A stretch of DNA of 64,000 nt, taken from NCBI GenBank assembly GCA_021833365.1, contig JAKBFV010000004.1, positions 1 to 64,000 of the forward strand, given 5' to 3'. The DNA comes from Pseudomonadota bacterium (GTDB taxonomy: Bacteria; Pseudomonadota; Gammaproteobacteria; Pseudomonadales; Moraxellaceae). Under the pieces are notes generated by a model. That model was not told where the DNA came from. It saw only the letters and a program-made list of their open reading frames with translations, and made no database searches. This document shows, one piece after another, positions 10,874 to 18,875 of the stretch. Position numbers and translations under genes: made by a program. The stretch's first letter is position 1, and every line of letters starts with the position of its first letter.

Positions 10874-12022
10874 TCATGCCAGACAAAAACGCGTGATGAG
10901 CGACTGCAGAAGATCTTGCATGGGCACCAGGCTGGCGCACTCGAGGTATTCGTCGGGCTGATGCGCCACGGCGATATTGCCTGGGCCGAGGATGACGGTG
11001 TCGAGGTCGAGAGCGCTCAGATAAGGCGCCTCGGTGGCAAAGGCGACGGCGATACCGGCATGGCCGGTGAGCTCCTGGCAGGCGTGCAGAATCGCCGCCT
11101 CATCGCGGCAGTGGAAAGCTGGCGTGGCCGCCGACAGGGGGCGCAGGTGCATGTCGACATGATGCTGGTGGCAGGTCGCAAGCAGGCGTGTCTGCAAGTC
11201 CTGCAACAGGGCTGTGACCGGCATGCCGGGCAGCGGCCGCAGGTCGAACTGCAGTCGGCACTGGGCACAGATACGGTTGGGATTGTCGCCGCCATGGATG
11301 GCGCCGAGATTGAGGGTGGGGACCGGCACCTGGAAGACGTCCTGACGGTAGCGCGCCTGCAGATCGCTGCGAAAATCGAGCAGGGTCGCCAGACAGGCAT
11401 GCATCGCCTCGAGAGCGCTGCGTCCGAGACCGGGGTCGGAGGAGTGCCCGCTGCGCCCTTGCAGAGAGAGCTCCTGCATGACGATGCCCTTATGCCGGGT
11501 CACCGGCCGCAGTCCCGTTGGTTCACCGATGAGGGCCTGATGCAGTCCGTGCACATCGTCGCGCACCAGGGCCTGGGCGCCGCGCATCGAACTCTCCTCG
11601 TCACAGGTGGCGAGCAGAACGAGAGGCGCGCGCCAGCGCCGCTGCGGTAGCGTGGCGATGGCGTGCAGGGCGATGGCAAAAAAGCCTTTCATGTCAGCGC
11701 TGCCGAGGCCGTAAAGGCGGTCATCGCGGCGGGTCAGACAAAAAGGATCGGAACTCCATCCCTCCCGGTCATAAGGGACGGTGTCGGTGTGGCCGGCGAG
11801 CAGCAGGCCCTGCTCACCGGCGCCGAGACGGGCGAGCAGATTGAACTTGCCGGCAGCGACTTCCTGAACCTGGCAGCTGAAACCGAGGGTGCTGCACCAT
11901 TGCGCCAGAAGCTCGACGACAGCGCGGTTGCTCATGTCGAAAGCGGGATCGACGGAACTCACCGAGGGCAGGGCGACCAGTTCGGCGAGCATACGCTCGG
12001 GGGCGGGCAGCGGCGATCTCAC
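10874..12022 (-). CDS. argE: Acetylornithine deacetylase
   Basis: M20 metallopeptidase-family enzyme that hydrolyses N-acetylornithine to ornithine. Di-zinc motifs are visible: AGHTDTVP, then GSADMKG, the EE pair in CDEESS, and a late VAHQPDEYL His. Starting at the GTG at 12022 gives 382 residues, essentially the E. coli ArgE length. This GTG overlaps the stop of the upstream cyclic-di-GMP gene as GTGA. A longer frame to 12100 exists but would lie inside that gene. Translational coupling to a c-di-GMP protein is odd for an arginine gene. Confidence 0.93.
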   Translation of the reverse strand: MRSPLPAPERMLAELVALPSVSSVDPAFDMSNRAVVELLAQWCSTLGFSCQVQEVAAGKFNLLARLGAGEQGLLLAGHTDTVPYDREGWSSDPFCLTRRDDRLYGLGSADMKGFFAIALHAIATLPQRRWRAPLVLLATCDEESSMRGAQALVRDDVHGLHQALIGEPTGLRPVTRHKGIVMQELSLQGRSGHSSDPGLGRSALEAMHACLATLLDFRSDLQARYRQDVFQVPVPTLNLGAIHGGDNPNRICAQCRLQFDLRPLPGMPVTALLQDLQTRLLATCHQHHVDMHLRPLSAATPAFHCRDEAAILHACQELTGHAGIAVAFATEAPYLSALDLDTVILGPGNIAVAHQPDEYLECASLVPMQDLLQSLITRFCLA

Positions 12023-14259
12023 GTTGCCTGCATCTGCTGGCGATAGCGTTGCAGCCACAGACGCAGCTCCGGCATCGGCATGGCGCGCGCATAGAGCCAA
12101 CCCTGTGCATCCGAGCAGCCGAGCTGACGCAGCAGGCCGGCCTGCTCCTCGGTCTCGACACCTTCGGCGACCGTTTCGACGCCGAGGCGCTTGCTCATGC
12201 CGATGATGGTCTCGGCGAACAGGGCACCCTGCCCTTGCGCGATCTCGCGCACGAACATCTGATCGACCTTGATCGTGTCGATGGGCAGGGCGCGCAGCTG
12301 GCCCATGGAAGAATAGCCGGTGCCGAAATCGTCGATGGCGATGCGCACGCCGATCTCTTTGAGAGCGTGGAAGCTGCGCTGCACCACCTTGGGCTCGTCC
12401 ATGGCGATGCTCTCGGTGATCTCGAGCTCGAGTCGATCCGGTTGCAGGCCCTGCAGTTTGAGGATGTCGATGACCTCGGCGACGTCATGGACGAAGCTCT
12501 GCGTACGAAACTGCGGCATGCTGACGTTGACCGCGACACGGCCCTCGAACAGACCCTCTTCATCGAGCTGGATCAGGGTGTCGGCGGAGCGTTCAAGCAC
12601 CCATTGACCGATGTCGATGATGAGGCCGGAGTCTTCGGCGAGCGGGATGAAGACGTTGGGCGGGTGGACGAAGCCACCATGCTCGTTCGGCCAGCGAATG
12701 AGCGCCTCCATGCCGCTGATGCGGCCGTCATGCAGGCTGATCTGTGGCTGGAACCAGACGTCGAGCTTCTCGGCGTCGAAAGCCTGGCGCAGATCGCGGA
12801 TGATCTCGAGGTGGCGCTGGGTATGCTCCTCCATCTCCGGAAGAAAATACTCGAAGTGGGTGACCACGCTCTTTTTGGCGCGACTGAGGGCGATGTTGGC
12901 CGACTTCAACAGGCTGATGCCGTCGCCGCCATCGCTGTGCAGCTGGCGCAGGCCAAGGGTCACCGACACCGGGATGTTGTTGTCGCCGACCTGGCAGGGC
13001 GTGTCGAAAATGTGCAGCAGACTGCTCGGATTGGCCTCGCTCTCCGGACCGACGACGGCGAAGACGTCGCCACCGATGCGCGCGATATGGCTATGCGTCA
13101 GACGCGAACTCAGGCGCTCGCCGACACTGCGCAGCAGCTCATCGCCGAGTTCGTCGCCGAGGGCGTCGTTGACCTCGGCGAAATTGTTGATATCGAGGAG
13201 GGCGAGGACGTCATGCCGGCCCTCGCTGTGCGGATGCTCGTCGAGGTGATTGATCAGATGCTGGCGGTTCCAGAGCGCGGTGAGGTGATCGTGGGTGGCA
13301 TTGAAATGCAGTTGTTCGAACAGGCTGGCCGTGGCGAAGGCGGTGTTCAGATTGGCGGCGAACAGGTGGATCGCCTGACGCTCGACGGCGGAGGGCGGCG
13401 GCAGGATCTCGAGCAGAACGATGGCGACGAGAAATTCACCATAAAGATGCAGCGTGCAATGTTCGTCTTCGAAAAGATGTTGCGCCAGGTTGAGGCAGCG
13501 CGTCACGCGATCGGTGGTGGCGGCCGGCAAACAGGCCCATTCAGCGTCGGTGTGCGCGGCCAAGCTGCCCTGGCTGGCGAGGATGCGCAGATGGCCGGGG
13601 TCATCATCGGCCGGAGCCTCGTCGCCGGCCGGAGTCTGTGCCGCGAACAAGCCGCTGATCGGGCGGCCGAGGATGCTCTCCAGTGACGCCAGGCCCTGCT
13701 GCGACAGGCTGTGCAGGGTGTGCTGACCATTGAGTTTGGCGGATTCGCGCGCGATCCTTTCCATCAGCTCGGTATTGCGGCGATTCGTTTCGATCTGCTC
13801 GTAAGAACGCAAAGCAGCGGTCATCGCCGTCATCAGGCGGGCATGCGTCAGCTCGGTCTTGGCGTGGTAGTCATTGATGTCGTACTCGGCAAAGACCTCG
13901 AGTTCCGGAGCGTAACCGGGTTGACCGGTGCGCAGGATGATGCGCGTTTCGAGCATCTGCAGCTGCGCGCGGATGTGGGTGATCAGGCGCAGACCGGCAT
14001 CGGGGGTCTCCATGACCACATCCAGCCAGACGACGGCGAAGTCGCGATCCTCGGCGAGCAGACTCATGCTCTGCGCCATCGAGTAGCTGTCGACGATTTC
14101 TATCGGGCGACCGAGCAGCTTGACGTTCTGCAGCACCAGACGGGTCACCTGGTGCACTTCCGGATCATCGTCCACCACCAGCACGCGCCAGGGCGGCAGA
14201 GCGCGTGCTGCATCGACGGCATCGCTGTCGTCAAAGAGTAGGAGATCGTCGTCAGGCAT
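12019..14259 (-). CDS. REC-DUF3369-GGDEF-EAL c-di-GMP protein, probably a phosphodiesterase
   Basis: A 746-residue response regulator. Receiver (residues 24-150) has VVDDDPE and Asp80. A DUF3369 region (about 160-310) follows, the usual partner of this receiver type. The GGDEF domain (about 315-470) has GGDVF at 396-400, so the metal-binding Glu is missing and cyclase activity is unlikely. The EAL domain (about 485-740) has MEALIRW (Glu518), NVSMPQ, EITES, DDFGTGYSS, KVDQMF and AEGVE, which suits an active c-di-GMP phosphodiesterase. The GGDEF part may be a GTP sensor, as known for other degenerate members. The stop overlaps the argE start. No partner kinase is adjacent. Confidence 0.9.
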   Translation of the reverse strand: MPDDDLLLFDDSDAVDAARALPPWRVLVVDDDPEVHQVTRLVLQNVKLLGRPIEIVDSYSMAQSMSLLAEDRDFAVVWLDVVMETPDAGLRLITHIRAQLQMLETRIILRTGQPGYAPELEVFAEYDINDYHAKTELTHARLMTAMTAALRSYEQIETNRRNTELMERIARESAKLNGQHTLHSLSQQGLASLESILGRPISGLFAAQTPAGDEAPADDDPGHLRILASQGSLAAHTDAEWACLPAATTDRVTRCLNLAQHLFEDEHCTLHLYGEFLVAIVLLEILPPPSAVERQAIHLFAANLNTAFATASLFEQLHFNATHDHLTALWNRQHLINHLDEHPHSEGRHDVLALLDINNFAEVNDALGDELGDELLRSVGERLSSRLTHSHIARIGGDVFAVVGPESEANPSSLLHIFDTPCQVGDNNIPVSVTLGLRQLHSDGGDGISLLKSANIALSRAKKSVVTHFEYFLPEMEEHTQRHLEIIRDLRQAFDAEKLDVWFQPQISLHDGRISGMEALIRWPNEHGGFVHPPNVFIPLAEDSGLIIDIGQWVLERSADTLIQLDEEGLFEGRVAVNVSMPQFRTQSFVHDVAEVIDILKLQGLQPDRLELEITESIAMDEPKVVQRSFHALKEIGVRIAIDDFGTGYSSMGQLRALPIDTIKVDQMFVREIAQGQGALFAETIIGMSKRLGVETVAEGVETEEQAGLLRQLGCSDAQGWLYARAMPMPELRLWLQRYRQQMQAT

Positions 14260-14323: not shown

Positions 14324-14971
14324 TCAGGGGAAAAGACGGCTGCGCTGCCAGACTGACGGTGTTTCCGGGAGGTAGAGCAGGCGGTCGTGCATGCGGCTCG
14401 GTCGCCCTTGCCAAAACTCGAAGCGGCGGCCGCGCAGGACATAGCCGCCCCAGAAATCAGGACGCGGCACCTGCAGGGGATAGCGCAGGCCGATCTGCGC
14501 CGCCCGGCTCATCAGCTGCGTACGCGAGGGCATCGTGGCGCTTTGCCGTGAAGCCCAGGCACCGATGCGGCTGGCGTAGGGGCGTGAAGCGAAGTAGGCG
14601 TCCGACTCGGCGGCGGGGAGGCGCTCGACGTCGCCCTCGATGCGCACCTGACGCTCCAGTTCCGGCCAGAAAAACGTCGCCGCGGCGCGCGGCCGGCCAT
14701 CGAGCTGCAGGCCTTTGCGGCTGGCATAGTTGGTGTAAAAGAGCAGGCCGCGCGCATCGATGCCCTTGCACAGGACGATGCGCCCGCTCGGATAGCCGTC
14801 TTCGGCGACGGTGGCGAGGTGCATGGCCGAAGCTTCCTGAACCCCGGCGGCGATGGCTTCTTCCATCCAATGCAGCAGTTGCGTGATCGGATCCGCCGCC
14901 GCGCTCTCAGGATCGAGCTCCTGTTGGCCATAGTCCTTGCGCAACTGACTGAGGTCGGTTTTGCTGTGCAC
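14324..14971 (-). CDS. pdxH: Pyridoxamine/pyridoxine 5'-phosphate oxidase
   Basis: FMN flavoprotein that oxidises pyridoxine or pyridoxamine 5'-phosphate to pyridoxal phosphate. At 215 residues it has the normal length. Family segments seen are MHLATVAEDGYPSGRIVLCKG, FYTNYASRKGLQL, FFWPELERQVRIEG, SRIGAWASRQS and the C-terminal WGGYVLRGRRFEFWQG, ending in the typical RLFP. It is a single gene with 64 bases separating it from the c-di-GMP gene start and 80 bases upstream to the next stop. Those gaps probably hold promoters, but I see no strong consensus. Confidence 0.95.
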   Translation of the reverse strand: MHSKTDLSQLRKDYGQQELDPESAAADPITQLLHWMEEAIAAGVQEASAMHLATVAEDGYPSGRIVLCKGIDARGLLFYTNYASRKGLQLDGRPRAAATFFWPELERQVRIEGDVERLPAAESDAYFASRPYASRIGAWASRQSATMPSRTQLMSRAAQIGLRYPLQVPRPDFWGGYVLRGRRFEFWQGRPSRMHDRLLYLPETPSVWQRSRLFP

Positions 14972-15051: not shown

Positions 15052-16062
15052 TCAAGAGAGCAGTTGTGTGACCTCGGGGCTGGCGTAGAACAGGCTGAGA
15101 TGGGCGCGCAGGCGCTGTTCCAGATGCCCCGACTGGCGCAACTGCGCGAGGGCAGGCTCGATACAGGCGAGCACCTCAGTGCCGATGGCGGCGACGTCGA
15201 GATCGAGCTGAGCCAGTGTCTGCGCCAGGGTCAGTTCGGCGAGGCTGGCGGCGATGGCGTCGACGATGGCGTCGAGCAGAGCGCTGGCGTAGGGGGTCTG
15301 CCGCACATCCTCCCAGAAGGTATGGAGCATGCTTTCGGTGTCGACGAGTTCGCGCTCACCGACATAGGCGGTGAACTTGTCCAGGCTGAGTCCGCGCGCC
15401 TTCGTCCAGGCTTCGAGCAGGGTCTGGCGCAGGCGTGGCCCCTTGCAGGCTTTCTCGATCAGCTGTTCGCTCAATTCGAGGGAGGCGCGCAGGTTCTTGG
15501 CGATGGTCTGCTTGATGGTGCGCTCGATGCCCTCCTCGAGCCCACCCATGCGGTTGACCATGCCTTTGCCGAGCTTCATCAGAGAAGACATGCCGGGTAC
15601 TTTCTTGGTCAGGATGTTGTCTTCGAGAAGATAGTCACGGATGCCGTTGTAGAGCAGATCGGAGAGCACGTCGCTGTAGACCGGGCTGGCGAGCACAGCA
15701 TTGACGACGTCGCGGCGCAGGTCCTCGAGGTCGAGCAGGCGGTCGATGAGAGTCTCGATGTGACCGGAGGCGACCAGGTCAGCGACGCGCGTCTGGCGTT
15801 GCAGAGGCAGAGCCAGCAGATGACGCGCCAGGTCGCGGTTGATCTGACGCAGCAGATCCGGCGCCGGACGCTGCAGGATCTGCTGGCGCAACAGGCGTTT
15901 GAGGGCATCCAGGTCGACGAGGGTGACGATGGGACGGTCGGCGATGGCGGAGATCACGGCGGTGATCTCGGACGGCACGGTCTGTTGCAGTTGCTCGGTC
16001 GACAGCTGTTGCAGCAGTTGTCGGGTGTGCGCATCGAGCAGGGTCTGGGCGAGCGGGTGCAT
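15052..16062 (-). CDS. Uncharacterised helical protein, paralogue A
   Basis: A 336-residue protein with no signal peptide or clear membrane span, predicted almost wholly helical. I do not recognise the family. It is a paralogue of the product at 17054-18040. Both begin PLAQTLLDA. Both have an LxDLR block near the middle and an LLxAW block. Both share LRQT followed by a LLD...VDA stretch, and both end FYAS-x-E-x-x-QLL. The start at 16062 has AAGGAG at 16071-16076, 8 bases upstream, rather than the in-frame start 18 bases earlier. The central part has an extra basic KKVPGMSSLMKLGKGMVNRMGG stretch absent from the paralogue. It lies immediately downstream of an HSL-type hydrolase on the same strand. 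Confidence 0.75.
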   Translation of the reverse strand: MHPLAQTLLDAHTRQLLQQLSTEQLQQTVPSEITAVISAIADRPIVTLVDLDALKRLLRQQILQRPAPDLLRQINRDLARHLLALPLQRQTRVADLVASGHIETLIDRLLDLEDLRRDVVNAVLASPVYSDVLSDLLYNGIRDYLLEDNILTKKVPGMSSLMKLGKGMVNRMGGLEEGIERTIKQTIAKNLRASLELSEQLIEKACKGPRLRQTLLEAWTKARGLSLDKFTAYVGERELVDTESMLHTFWEDVRQTPYASALLDAIVDAIAASLAELTLAQTLAQLDLDVAAIGTEVLACIEPALAQLRQSGHLEQRLRAHLSLFYASPEVTQLLS

Positions 16063-16070
16063 CGGCGATT

Positions 16071-16076
16071 CTCCTT
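16071..16076 (-). promoter_or_regulatory. Ribosome binding site for paralogue A
   Basis: CTCCTT on the plus strand is AAGGAG on the coding strand, 8 bases before the ATG at 16062. It fixes the start there and lies just after the stop of the preceding hydrolase gene. Confidence 0.7.
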
Positions 16077-16080
16077 GCAA

Positions 16081-16974
16081 TCAGTTCAGGTGTGCGCGCA
16101 GAAACCGCAAAAGGTCGCGCTGATCGGCGCGCGCTTCCGCGATGAAGGGATGAAAAATGGGCCACACATGCGGCATGTCAGGCCTTTGCAGCAGATCGAC
16201 ATGGACACCGGCGGCACGCGCCCGCCGTGCCACTTCGACGGCGTCATCGGCGAAGCACTCGCTGGCGCTGCAGCTCAACCATAGGGGCGGCAGGCCATGA
16301 TAGTCGCCGAACAGCGGTGAGGCGTAAGGATGGCGCGGGTCGGCGCCGGCCAGGTAGAGGTCGCGGCCGACATGCAGCATATCGAGGGAGAGCATGTCAT
16401 CGCTGGCGTTGCAGCGTATCCGGCTGTTCACGCTGTTGCTCAGATCGGCGTAGGGCGAGATGGCGATCGCCGCCGCTGGCAAGGGCCGCCCTTCGTCACG
16501 CAGGCGCAGGAGCAGGGAGAGGGCGAGGGCGCCGCCGGCAGAATCACCGGCGATGACCAGCTGCTGCGCGGAAAAATGCTGCAACATGGCGAGATAGACG
16601 CTGTGCGCATCATCGAGGGCGGCAGGATAAGGGTGTTCCGGTGCCAGGCGGTAGTCGGGCAGCCAGACCGCGAGGTCGAGATGGCGCGCCCAGCTTGAGC
16701 ACAGATTGAAGTAAGTGCGCGCGACGCCGGCGACAAAGCCGCCACCATGCAGATAGAGGACGGCAGCCTGCGTCTGGCGCGGCTGCAGCATATCGACGCC
16801 GATGCCCGCGACCTGACGCGTCAGGTGGGTCACGCCCATGGCCGTCAGCCAGGGCAGCGGTGCAGCGTTGAAGTGGCGGCGCAGATGGCGCACCAGCCCT
16901 TGTGGTGAATCAGGCGACGCCTTGATCGTGCGTCGCACGAAGGTTTTGAGAACCCGCGCGCTGAGACTGGTCAT
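16081..16974 (-). CDS. HSL-family alpha/beta hydrolase (esterase/lipase)
   Basis: A 297-residue cytoplasmic alpha/beta hydrolase of the hormone-sensitive-lipase group (alpha/beta hydrolase fold 3). YLHGGGFVAG forms the oxyanion hole and GDSAGGALA holds the nucleophile Ser. A late MPHVWPIF segment carries the likely catalytic His, and DYRLAPEHPYPAAL is typical of the group. Substrates are usually short- to medium-chain acyl esters; the real one is unknown. It stands between two paralogous helical proteins on the same strand and ends 18 bases before the ATG of the second, so it is probably part of one functional unit with them. Confidence 0.85.
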   Translation of the reverse strand: MTSLSARVLKTFVRRTIKASPDSPQGLVRHLRRHFNAAPLPWLTAMGVTHLTRQVAGIGVDMLQPRQTQAAVLYLHGGGFVAGVARTYFNLCSSWARHLDLAVWLPDYRLAPEHPYPAALDDAHSVYLAMLQHFSAQQLVIAGDSAGGALALSLLLRLRDEGRPLPAAAIAISPYADLSNSVNSRIRCNASDDMLSLDMLHVGRDLYLAGADPRHPYASPLFGDYHGLPPLWLSCSASECFADDAVEVARRARAAGVHVDLLQRPDMPHVWPIFHPFIAEARADQRDLLRFLRAHLN

Positions 16975-17053
16975 GGACGAAGCTCCTGTGGTGTTCGATC
17001 CGGGATGACAACACTCTAGCGACTCGTCGCGGCTTGACCATGTCTGGCCGGAC

Positions 17054-18040
17054 TCAGGGCGCCGGCACGCCGGTCAGTAGCTGCTGCAGCTCGGCGGACG
17101 CATAAAACGGTTGCAGGATTTCGCGCAGGATAGGCTCGAGCATTTTCTTGCGCCGCAACACGCGCAGGACCGGCGGGGCGAAACGCAGAGCGTCCTGCAA
17201 CATCATGGTGCGGGTGATGCCGAGATCGGCGAGCAGATCGCCGAGAGTGACTTCGCCATAGACCGAAAAGAAGGCATCGACACCGGTATCGAGCAGCTCG
17301 CTGTAGAAATCGGTCTGACGCAGGTGCTGCCAGTACTGATAAAAGATGACGAAGAACTCCTCGACATCGAGAGGACTGATGTAGTCGCTGATGCGACCGA
17401 TGGCGCGATGGCGGACCTGTTCCCAGGCATCGAGCAAGGTTTCCAGCCATTGCTGGTCATCGAGGCTCTTCAGCTGCTCGCACAGATCCTGCAAGCTGGT
17501 GCTGATGAAGTGCAGCAGCAGATCATGGGTCTTGTCTGGCCAGTGGCCGTGCTCTAGACGTGGCCAAAGTCGCTGCAGGGCGGTGGGCGTGTGTTCCCTG
17601 GCCCAGGTATGAGCGCGGCGCAGCAGCATGTCGGTGAGCATCTGAGCAAAAATGGGATGATCCTTGATCTCATCGAGCGTGTTCTGTCGCAAGTCCTGCA
17701 GCTCCAGCGATTTTGCGAAGAATTCGCGCACATAGAGGCTGGGCAGAATGGCGTCGATGTGTGTCTGCTTCTGCGCGATCTTGGCATGCAGGAGGTGGGC
17801 TACGGCACTGGCGATCTCCGGGATGGCCGAGCGTAGTTGCAGATTGACGGCGTATTGCCGCACCGTGCTCTTGATCATGTCGGGCGTGACCAGTTCATTC
17901 AGGCGCAAGCGCTGCGCGCGCGCGAGCAAATCATCGAGGCCACGCTCGATGAAAGGCTGCAGGCGCGGTCCGGAGAGGTCGCGCAGCATGAATTTGACCT
18001 GGGCGTCCAGCAAGGTCTGGGCCAGGGGGAGCATCTCCAT
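17054..18040 (-). CDS. Uncharacterised helical protein, paralogue B
   Basis: A 328-residue, mainly helical soluble protein related to the product at 15052-16062. It shares the N-terminal LPLAQTLLDA, central LQDLR, LLDAW, LRQTDFYSELLDTGVDA and C-terminal PFYASAELQQLLT blocks. I do not recognise a function. The ATG at 18040 follows GGAG by about 7 bases; the ATG two codons later (18034) aligns best with the paralogue. The frame remains open further upstream to 18166, but that extension has no homology to the paralogue and is low-complexity. It is the first gene of the three-gene set with the HSL-type hydrolase. Confidence 0.75.
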   Translation of the reverse strand: MEMLPLAQTLLDAQVKFMLRDLSGPRLQPFIERGLDDLLARAQRLRLNELVTPDMIKSTVRQYAVNLQLRSAIPEIASAVAHLLHAKIAQKQTHIDAILPSLYVREFFAKSLELQDLRQNTLDEIKDHPIFAQMLTDMLLRRAHTWAREHTPTALQRLWPRLEHGHWPDKTHDLLLHFISTSLQDLCEQLKSLDDQQWLETLLDAWEQVRHRAIGRISDYISPLDVEEFFVIFYQYWQHLRQTDFYSELLDTGVDAFFSVYGEVTLGDLLADLGITRTMMLQDALRFAPPVLRVLRRKKMLEPILREILQPFYASAELQQLLTGVPAP

Positions 18041-18180
18041 AGCACAACTCCACATATCCATGTCCATGGTGGGGGTCATTCTATACAGGATCATGGCGAC
18101 TGGCGATGAGGAGAGAAGCACCATAGCGGTCATAAGGGGGGGCAAATTTTGTGCATCATCTAACAATCTGAAACAAATCC

Positions 18181-18314: not shown

Positions 18315-18875
18315 ATGATCGAACGACTGCGCACATCTTGCCTTCTCGCCGCGACCTTGCTCGTGGTGGTGGGAGCTGCGCGTGCCGATGCGCCCATGGA
18401 AGGCGCCGCTAGTAGCGCCGATGCCCCCGTCCTCAGTGTCAGCGAACTCGGTGCTGCCGACGTGGTCATGGAGACCCTGAGCCTGATCGGCACGCCCTAT
18501 CGCTGGGCCGGCGCCAGTCCGGAAGGTGGCTTCGATTGCTCGGGCCTCGTCTCCTATGTCTATCGCGACGTCCTGGCGCGCGATCTGCCGCATTCGGCCG
18601 AAGAGCTCTTCCATCATGCCGGTGGGCAGAAAATTGACAACCCGAGTCGCTTGCAGCCGGGCGATCTGGTGTTCTTCCATATGGGCCGACATCATCACCG
18701 TATCGACCATGTCGCCGTCTATATCGGCGATGGTCGTTTCGTGCATGCGCCGACCACCGGCAGCACGGTGCGCGTCGATAATCTGAGTGATGCTTTCTGG
18801 CACGCACATTATCGTGGTGGCGTGCGTCTCATCCCCGATCATCTCGCTCTCAATCAGAGCGACCCTCACTCCTGA
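18315..18875 (+). CDS. NlpC/P60 family cell-wall hydrolase
   Basis: A 186-residue exported protein with a signal peptide (about 1-25, cleavage near ARA/DAP). A single NlpC/P60 cysteine peptidase domain follows, with GTPYRWAGASPEGGFDCSG carrying the nucleophile Cys. HVAVYIGDGRFVHAP holds the catalytic His residues. Such enzymes cut peptide links in peptidoglycan stems; this one lacks any SH3 or LysM targeting domain. It is transcribed alone, divergent from paralogue B, and its last 10 bases overlap the converging MFS gene. Confidence 0.88.
   Translation: MIERLRTSCLLAATLLVVVGAARADAPMEGAASSADAPVLSVSELGAADVVMETLSLIGTPYRWAGASPEGGFDCSGLVSYVYRDVLARDLPHSAEELFHHAGGQKIDNPSRLQPGDLVFFHMGRHHHRIDHVAVYIGDGRFVHAPTTGSTVRVDNLSDAFWHAHYRGGVRLIPDHLALNQSDPHS

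Follow-up and report, generated by a model that had tools for sequence, protein, structure and literature searches.

Bacterial lipid-inclusion proteins, such as MLDS/TadA of Rhodococcus, the inclusion proteins of mycobacteria and the phasins, are often encoded near the enzymes of the stored compound. In the open-access literature we found inclusion proteins described for actinobacteria, and none for the wax ester or triacylglycerol (TAG) inclusions of bacteria of the Acinetobacter, Marinobacter and Alcanivorax type. A gene-neighbourhood survey of WS/DGAT, the enzyme that makes both lipids, describes alpha/beta hydrolases in the vicinity, along with hypothetical proteins that it does not name; in the part of that survey considered here, the family described below is not singled out (PMC10351704). 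The locus analysed here encodes two members, P0001 and P0002, of an unnamed family that may be likened to the inclusion proteins in its proposed role only. Its members are multi-helix proteins of about 330 aa found mainly in Gram-negative carriers of WS/DGAT, and neither phasins nor other curated inclusion-protein families were among the Pfam and NCBIfam matches of P0001, P0002 or the member sets, a comparison confined to curated families.

Layout of the locus and the esterase gene

The window, that is, the whole stretch of 64,000 nucleotides that was analysed, comes from a Moraxellaceae genome and contains the following features:

17054..18040, minus strand: P0002 (328 aa), which opens the unit and belongs to clade II of the unnamed helical family
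16081..16974, minus strand: HSL-type esterase (297 aa), middle gene
15052..16062, minus strand: P0001 (336 aa), which belongs to clade I of that family
14324..14971, minus strand: pdxH (pyridoxamine 5'-phosphate oxidase; TIGR00558, E 6.3e-73), next gene downstream
18078..18106, minus strand: promoter-like site and possible transcript start, 38 bases before the start of P0002

P0002, HSL and P0001 lie head-to-tail, separated by 79 bp (P0002/HSL) and 18 bp (HSL/P0001), in keeping with the original prediction that a closely spaced pair flanks an HSL-family esterase on the same strand. A Shine-Dalgarno-like AGGAG lies ahead of the HSL start, and AAGGAG at positions 16071-16076 lies ahead of the ATG of P0001. 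Compared with congener G001, the substitutions at codon positions 1, 2 and 3 number 36/28/111 in P0001, 44/30/101 in P0002 and 35/17/86 in HSL, and this excess at the third position indicates that all three genes are coding; a long plus-strand open reading frame (15064-16284) is read as an antisense shadow. The HSL esterase is probably made from the same transcript as P0001 and P0002, a co-transcription that we infer. The promoter-like site before P0002 matches the consensus at 9 of 12 positions in a scan, which is not above shuffled sequences. In several relatives pdxH is also found downstream of a family gene, as seen in the neighbourhood comparison, and this adjacency is probably positional only. 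Further out lie two ordinary neighbours: a gene for an NlpC/P60 peptidase (18315-18875, plus strand), divergent from P0002, and one for a DUF3369-GGDEF-EAL protein (12019-14259, minus strand), downstream of pdxH. Rfam and tRNA scans of the window gave no matches.

The middle gene encodes a family IV (hormone-sensitive-lipase-like) alpha/beta hydrolase, for which ester hydrolysis is predicted. Its product matches Pfam PF07859 (Abhydrolase_3; E 4.8e-54), the NCBIfam GESAG HSL subfamily (E 3.2e-61, yet below the curated subfamily cut-off) and, in the PDB, EstD11 (E 2.3e-54). The HGGG motif occupies residues 76-79 and GDSAG residues 143-147 (Ser145); the candidate acid within SECFADD (238-244) and the histidine of PHVW at 268 (His269) were assigned from the family pattern. 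Sharing PF07859, HGGG and GDSAG with EstD11, Est8 and other bacterial family IV esterases, it is unremarkable among them, and differs in falling below the curated NCBIfam subfamily cut-offs. Among 58 relatives, 49 have HSL homologues, in most cases at other genomic sites.

Paralogy and predicted structure of P0001 and P0002

BLASTP aligns P0001 with P0002 along the whole of both sequences (107 bits, E 4e-31, 27% identity), and the two are almost certainly real paralogues of one family, as the original prediction had proposed. The shared motifs that it listed are present as PLAQTLLDA, LEDLR/LQDLR, LLEAW/LLDAW and FYASPEVTQLL/FYASAELQQLL, but P0001 reads VRQT where LRQT had been given. In a tree of 104 rows, P0001 falls in a Moraxellaceae clade (clade I; 31 rows, support 99/98) and P0002 in a separate, wider one (clade II; 39 rows, support 98/94). 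Because each copy belongs to a different clade with good support, a recent tandem duplication is rejected; the two are ancient paralogues.

Neither protein matches a Pfam or NCBIfam model at a meaningful score, and no such model fits the member sets of 42 and 40 sequences, which agrees with the earlier statement that no family could be recognised. The likeness to DUF445 (PF04286) consists of weak matches of 4 of the 42 and 1 of the 40 members (best E 2.3e-5), and of neither P0001 nor P0002; the genomes with weakly matching members also encode true DUF445 proteins separately, and membership was rejected (hhalign profile-profile probability 1.5%). The sole PDB sequence match, a weak one to GerD (E 0.0012, 84 residues), is read as helical composition. 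A Foldseek search of the PDB with both models returned nothing at E <= 0.001, and a second fold comparison with the P0001 model yielded loose long-helix matches only (best Z 6.7, rmsd 34.7). Internal repeats found no profile support. In the open-access literature we found no named protein of this kind. For the annotation 'XynC protein' in Acinetobacter no supporting paper was found; in A. baumannii records the homologue is titled only 'hypothetical protein' and lies beside an 'alpha/beta hydrolase'.

The AlphaFold models of P0001 (pLDDT 83.9, pTM 0.56) and P0002 (pLDDT 84.0, pTM 0.57) consist entirely of helices, with no sheet and with an identical helix order, in line with the original description of helical proteins; their overall packing is unsure because the pTM values are modest. 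The proteins lack a transmembrane stretch or hydrophobic anchor (best 19-residue Kyte-Doolittle mean 1.63) and contain amphipathic segments. Both are predicted to be soluble and all-helical. One segment of P0001 stands out:

15538..15591, minus strand: cationic amphipathic stretch MSSLMKLGKGMVNRMGGL, P0001 residues 158-175, low pLDDT

With a hydrophobic moment of 0.505 and a net charge of +3, this stretch is a candidate lipid-surface contact. It overlaps the best conserved block of clade I-type sequences, N-x-L-x-K-K-V-P-G-M-S-S-L-M-K-x-G-K-G, around residues 149-167, and P156, G157, L161, K163, G165 and K166 are invariant across 15 such sequences. A strict motif pattern is satisfied by 41 of 124 family members; since P0002 and many others have diverged at the block, a function common to the family cannot centre on it.

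Distribution and co-occurrence with WS/DGAT

Relatives of P0001 are present in 30 of 58 related genomes, and the family extends over Moraxellaceae, Marinobacter, Hahellaceae, other Pseudomonadales, Desulfobacteraceae and a few spirochaetes, the spirochaete carriers in the named-genome scan being two MAGs. Most Moraxellaceae have copies of both clades at separate sites. The order clade II-HSL-clade I on one strand was found in the home genus (g1, 3/3) and in the lineage of L076, L077, L078, L079 and L081. Between these two groups the HSLs share 47-51% identity, which barely exceeds their identity to some HSLs elsewhere. The view that the three genes form one functional unit is therefore upheld in part: a same-strand unit exists here and its order recurs in two Moraxellaceae lineages, but it is not a general unit, since the paralogues are usually unlinked. 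The adjacency of pair and hydrolase, whose occurrence in other genomes the original prediction had proposed to survey, was seen in these two lineages only, with the HSL gene between the copies. The record of L081, under the title Pedobacter sp. (Bacteroidota), has the cassette typical of Moraxellaceae and groups with Moraxellaceae in the tree; it is probably mislabelled or a mixed metagenome bin.

Among the 323 genomes of the class-wide sample, the family occurs in 8, 7 of which also have WS/DGAT. With the home genus left out, WS/DGAT is found in 5 of 6 carriers as compared with 18 of 321 genomes overall (Fisher p 1.8e-6), and counting by GTDB family gives p about 9e-5, on an approximate family count. 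PHA synthase, taken as a control in these genomes, is not enriched in carriers (p 0.31). For the home order (294 genomes), WS/DGAT is present in 51 of 54 carriers and 65 of 240 non-carriers; by GTDB family the figures are 6/9 and about 15/37 (p 0.15, not significant), and so much of the 51/54 may reflect shared ancestry. These co-occurrence tables were transcribed by hand, with only approximate totals for families. WS/DGAT is present in all five Desulfobacteraceae-type carriers. Five carriers so far are without it (G057, G068, G069, G522 and the spirochaete genome of L101), the spirochaete genome of L103 has a match below the cut-off only, and many WS/DGAT-rich lineages lack the family. The genome of the window itself encodes two WS/DGAT genes and a PHA synthase (contigs C79 and C13), the PhaC_N match lying on C79 some 12 kb away from one of the WS/DGAT genes, and may thus store both kinds of compound.

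Gene neighbourhoods and proposed role

The neighbours of 124 family genes, a partly redundant set, were surveyed. Of these genes, 74 have a close same-strand upstream gene and 50 have none, neighbour counts being lower bounds because the gene caller picks long open reading frames. The commonest upstream neighbour, directly upstream at 16 loci, encodes an Abhydrolase_1 protein, which in A. baumannii lies 26 bp from the family gene; an HSL gene adjoins a family gene at 7 loci in the operon count and at 8 in the HSL tree. Other upstream neighbours include a dienelactone hydrolase, the putative metal-dependent hydrolase PF10118, a fatty acid desaturase, NadE, TetR, AraC, a GST-like protein and DegV. 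Neighbours of lipid type further include a Tle1-like lipase, two kinds of fatty acid desaturase, a DAGAT-like acyltransferase, a lipase chaperone and a DegV/FakB-like fatty-acid binder, while NadE, MotB, AraC, a DEAD helicase, aconitase and polysaccharide deacetylase have no lipid link (NadE, the ferredoxin reductase mentioned below and the Hahella-type desaturase were identified by eye from sequence). In Desulfobacteraceae, genes for a DAGAT-like acyltransferase and TetR lie upstream of the family gene; WS/DGAT itself is two genes upstream in L131, and a homologue is about 2.8 kb away in L100. By raw counts, lipid genes are frequent around family genes but not exclusive.

The neutral-lipid link is the best supported functional hint, and it is an association. 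The storage-lipid role guessed in the original prediction has gained indirect support from the co-occurrence with WS/DGAT and the lipid-type neighbours, while the function itself is inferred. Tentatively, we propose that the family acts in the cytoplasm, at the inclusion surface or in lipid access, together with partners that hydrolyse or modify lipids. The family would be tied to neutral storage lipids, that is, the wax esters and TAG made by WS/DGAT; the protein would remain in the cytoplasm, where its amphipathic helices may bind the surface of the lipid inclusion or the adjacent membrane, in clade I possibly with participation of the conserved PGxSSLMKxGK stretch. Once bound, it could give access to, or help, its partner, which here would be the HSL esterase. 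Location, lipid binding, contact with the hydrolase and direction of the effect are all putative. A point against this proposal is that in Acinetobacter-type genomes the Abhydrolase_1 partner seems, from a signal-like N-terminus in its sequence, to be a secreted protein, a poor fit to a helper in the cytoplasm. A more specific version, in which the family is the inclusion coat of Gram-negative wax ester and TAG storers, a counterpart of perilipin that recruits lipases and that duplicated early, with pair and lipase in one operon in some Moraxellaceae, appears somewhat doubtful.

The variety of hydrolases also bears on another explanation, namely that family members assist alpha/beta hydrolases and lipases in general, or help them to fold, in a role comparable to that of lipase foldases, with every copy acting on the hydrolase encoded next to it. 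At least four different alpha/beta hydrolase families adjoin family genes, and in L140 a lipase chaperone gene itself is found two genes upstream. Lipase foldases are periplasmic proteins with a membrane anchor; those of the Lipase_chap family (PF03280) are lipase-specific, likewise about 330 aa and helical, and sometimes encoded beside lipases, so that P0001 and P0002 resemble them in general terms in size and helical make-up. However, the two proteins match no PF03280 model and lack the anchor, PF03280 is not among the matches listed for the 42 and 40 members, and many members have no adjoining hydrolase, which together make a folding role unlikely.

A different set of neighbours, a desaturase, ferredoxin reductase and TetR cluster beside a family gene, together with another desaturase and the DegV/FakB-like gene, would fit a role in membrane lipid homeostasis (fatty acid uptake, desaturation or phospholipid handling), with WS/DGAT merely marking lipid-rich or alkane-using lifestyles. 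The carriers without WS/DGAT point the same way, but the family is associated with WS/DGAT and shows no such link to PHA synthase, and for such near-universal pathways one would expect it in more than 8 of 323 genomes; we regard this explanation as somewhat unlikely. It is still less probable that hydrolase adjacency is largely passive and the function of the family unrelated to lipids. Partners do differ between lineages, several have no lipid connection, and the 50 genes lacking a close upstream partner would be expected under passive adjacency; the II-HSL-I order in two lineages, the hydrolase directly upstream at 16 loci and the WS/DGAT association outside the home genus all argue against it.

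A family without a Pfam or NCBIfam name that tracks WS/DGAT and lies beside lipases offers a concrete candidate that can be tested quickly, and it may prove useful for making oil and wax with microbes.

Several further neighbours were observed. In the Marinobacter type (L046, L093, L149, L151), the PF10118 hydrolase recurs just upstream, in some cases with the DegV/FakB-like fatty-acid binder. In the Hahellaceae type, a helical-looking protein of about 130 aa is encoded directly upstream of the family gene (L100:6548-6955 and L051:5719-6102, both plus strand, and L137); by eye it is phasin-like, and it has no meaningful Pfam match. The window also encodes a saccharopine dehydrogenase-like NADP-binding protein (PF03435; 20109-21359, plus strand), distant relatives of which are encoded immediately ahead of the family gene in L144 and L145, from the carriers G068 and G069 without WS/DGAT.
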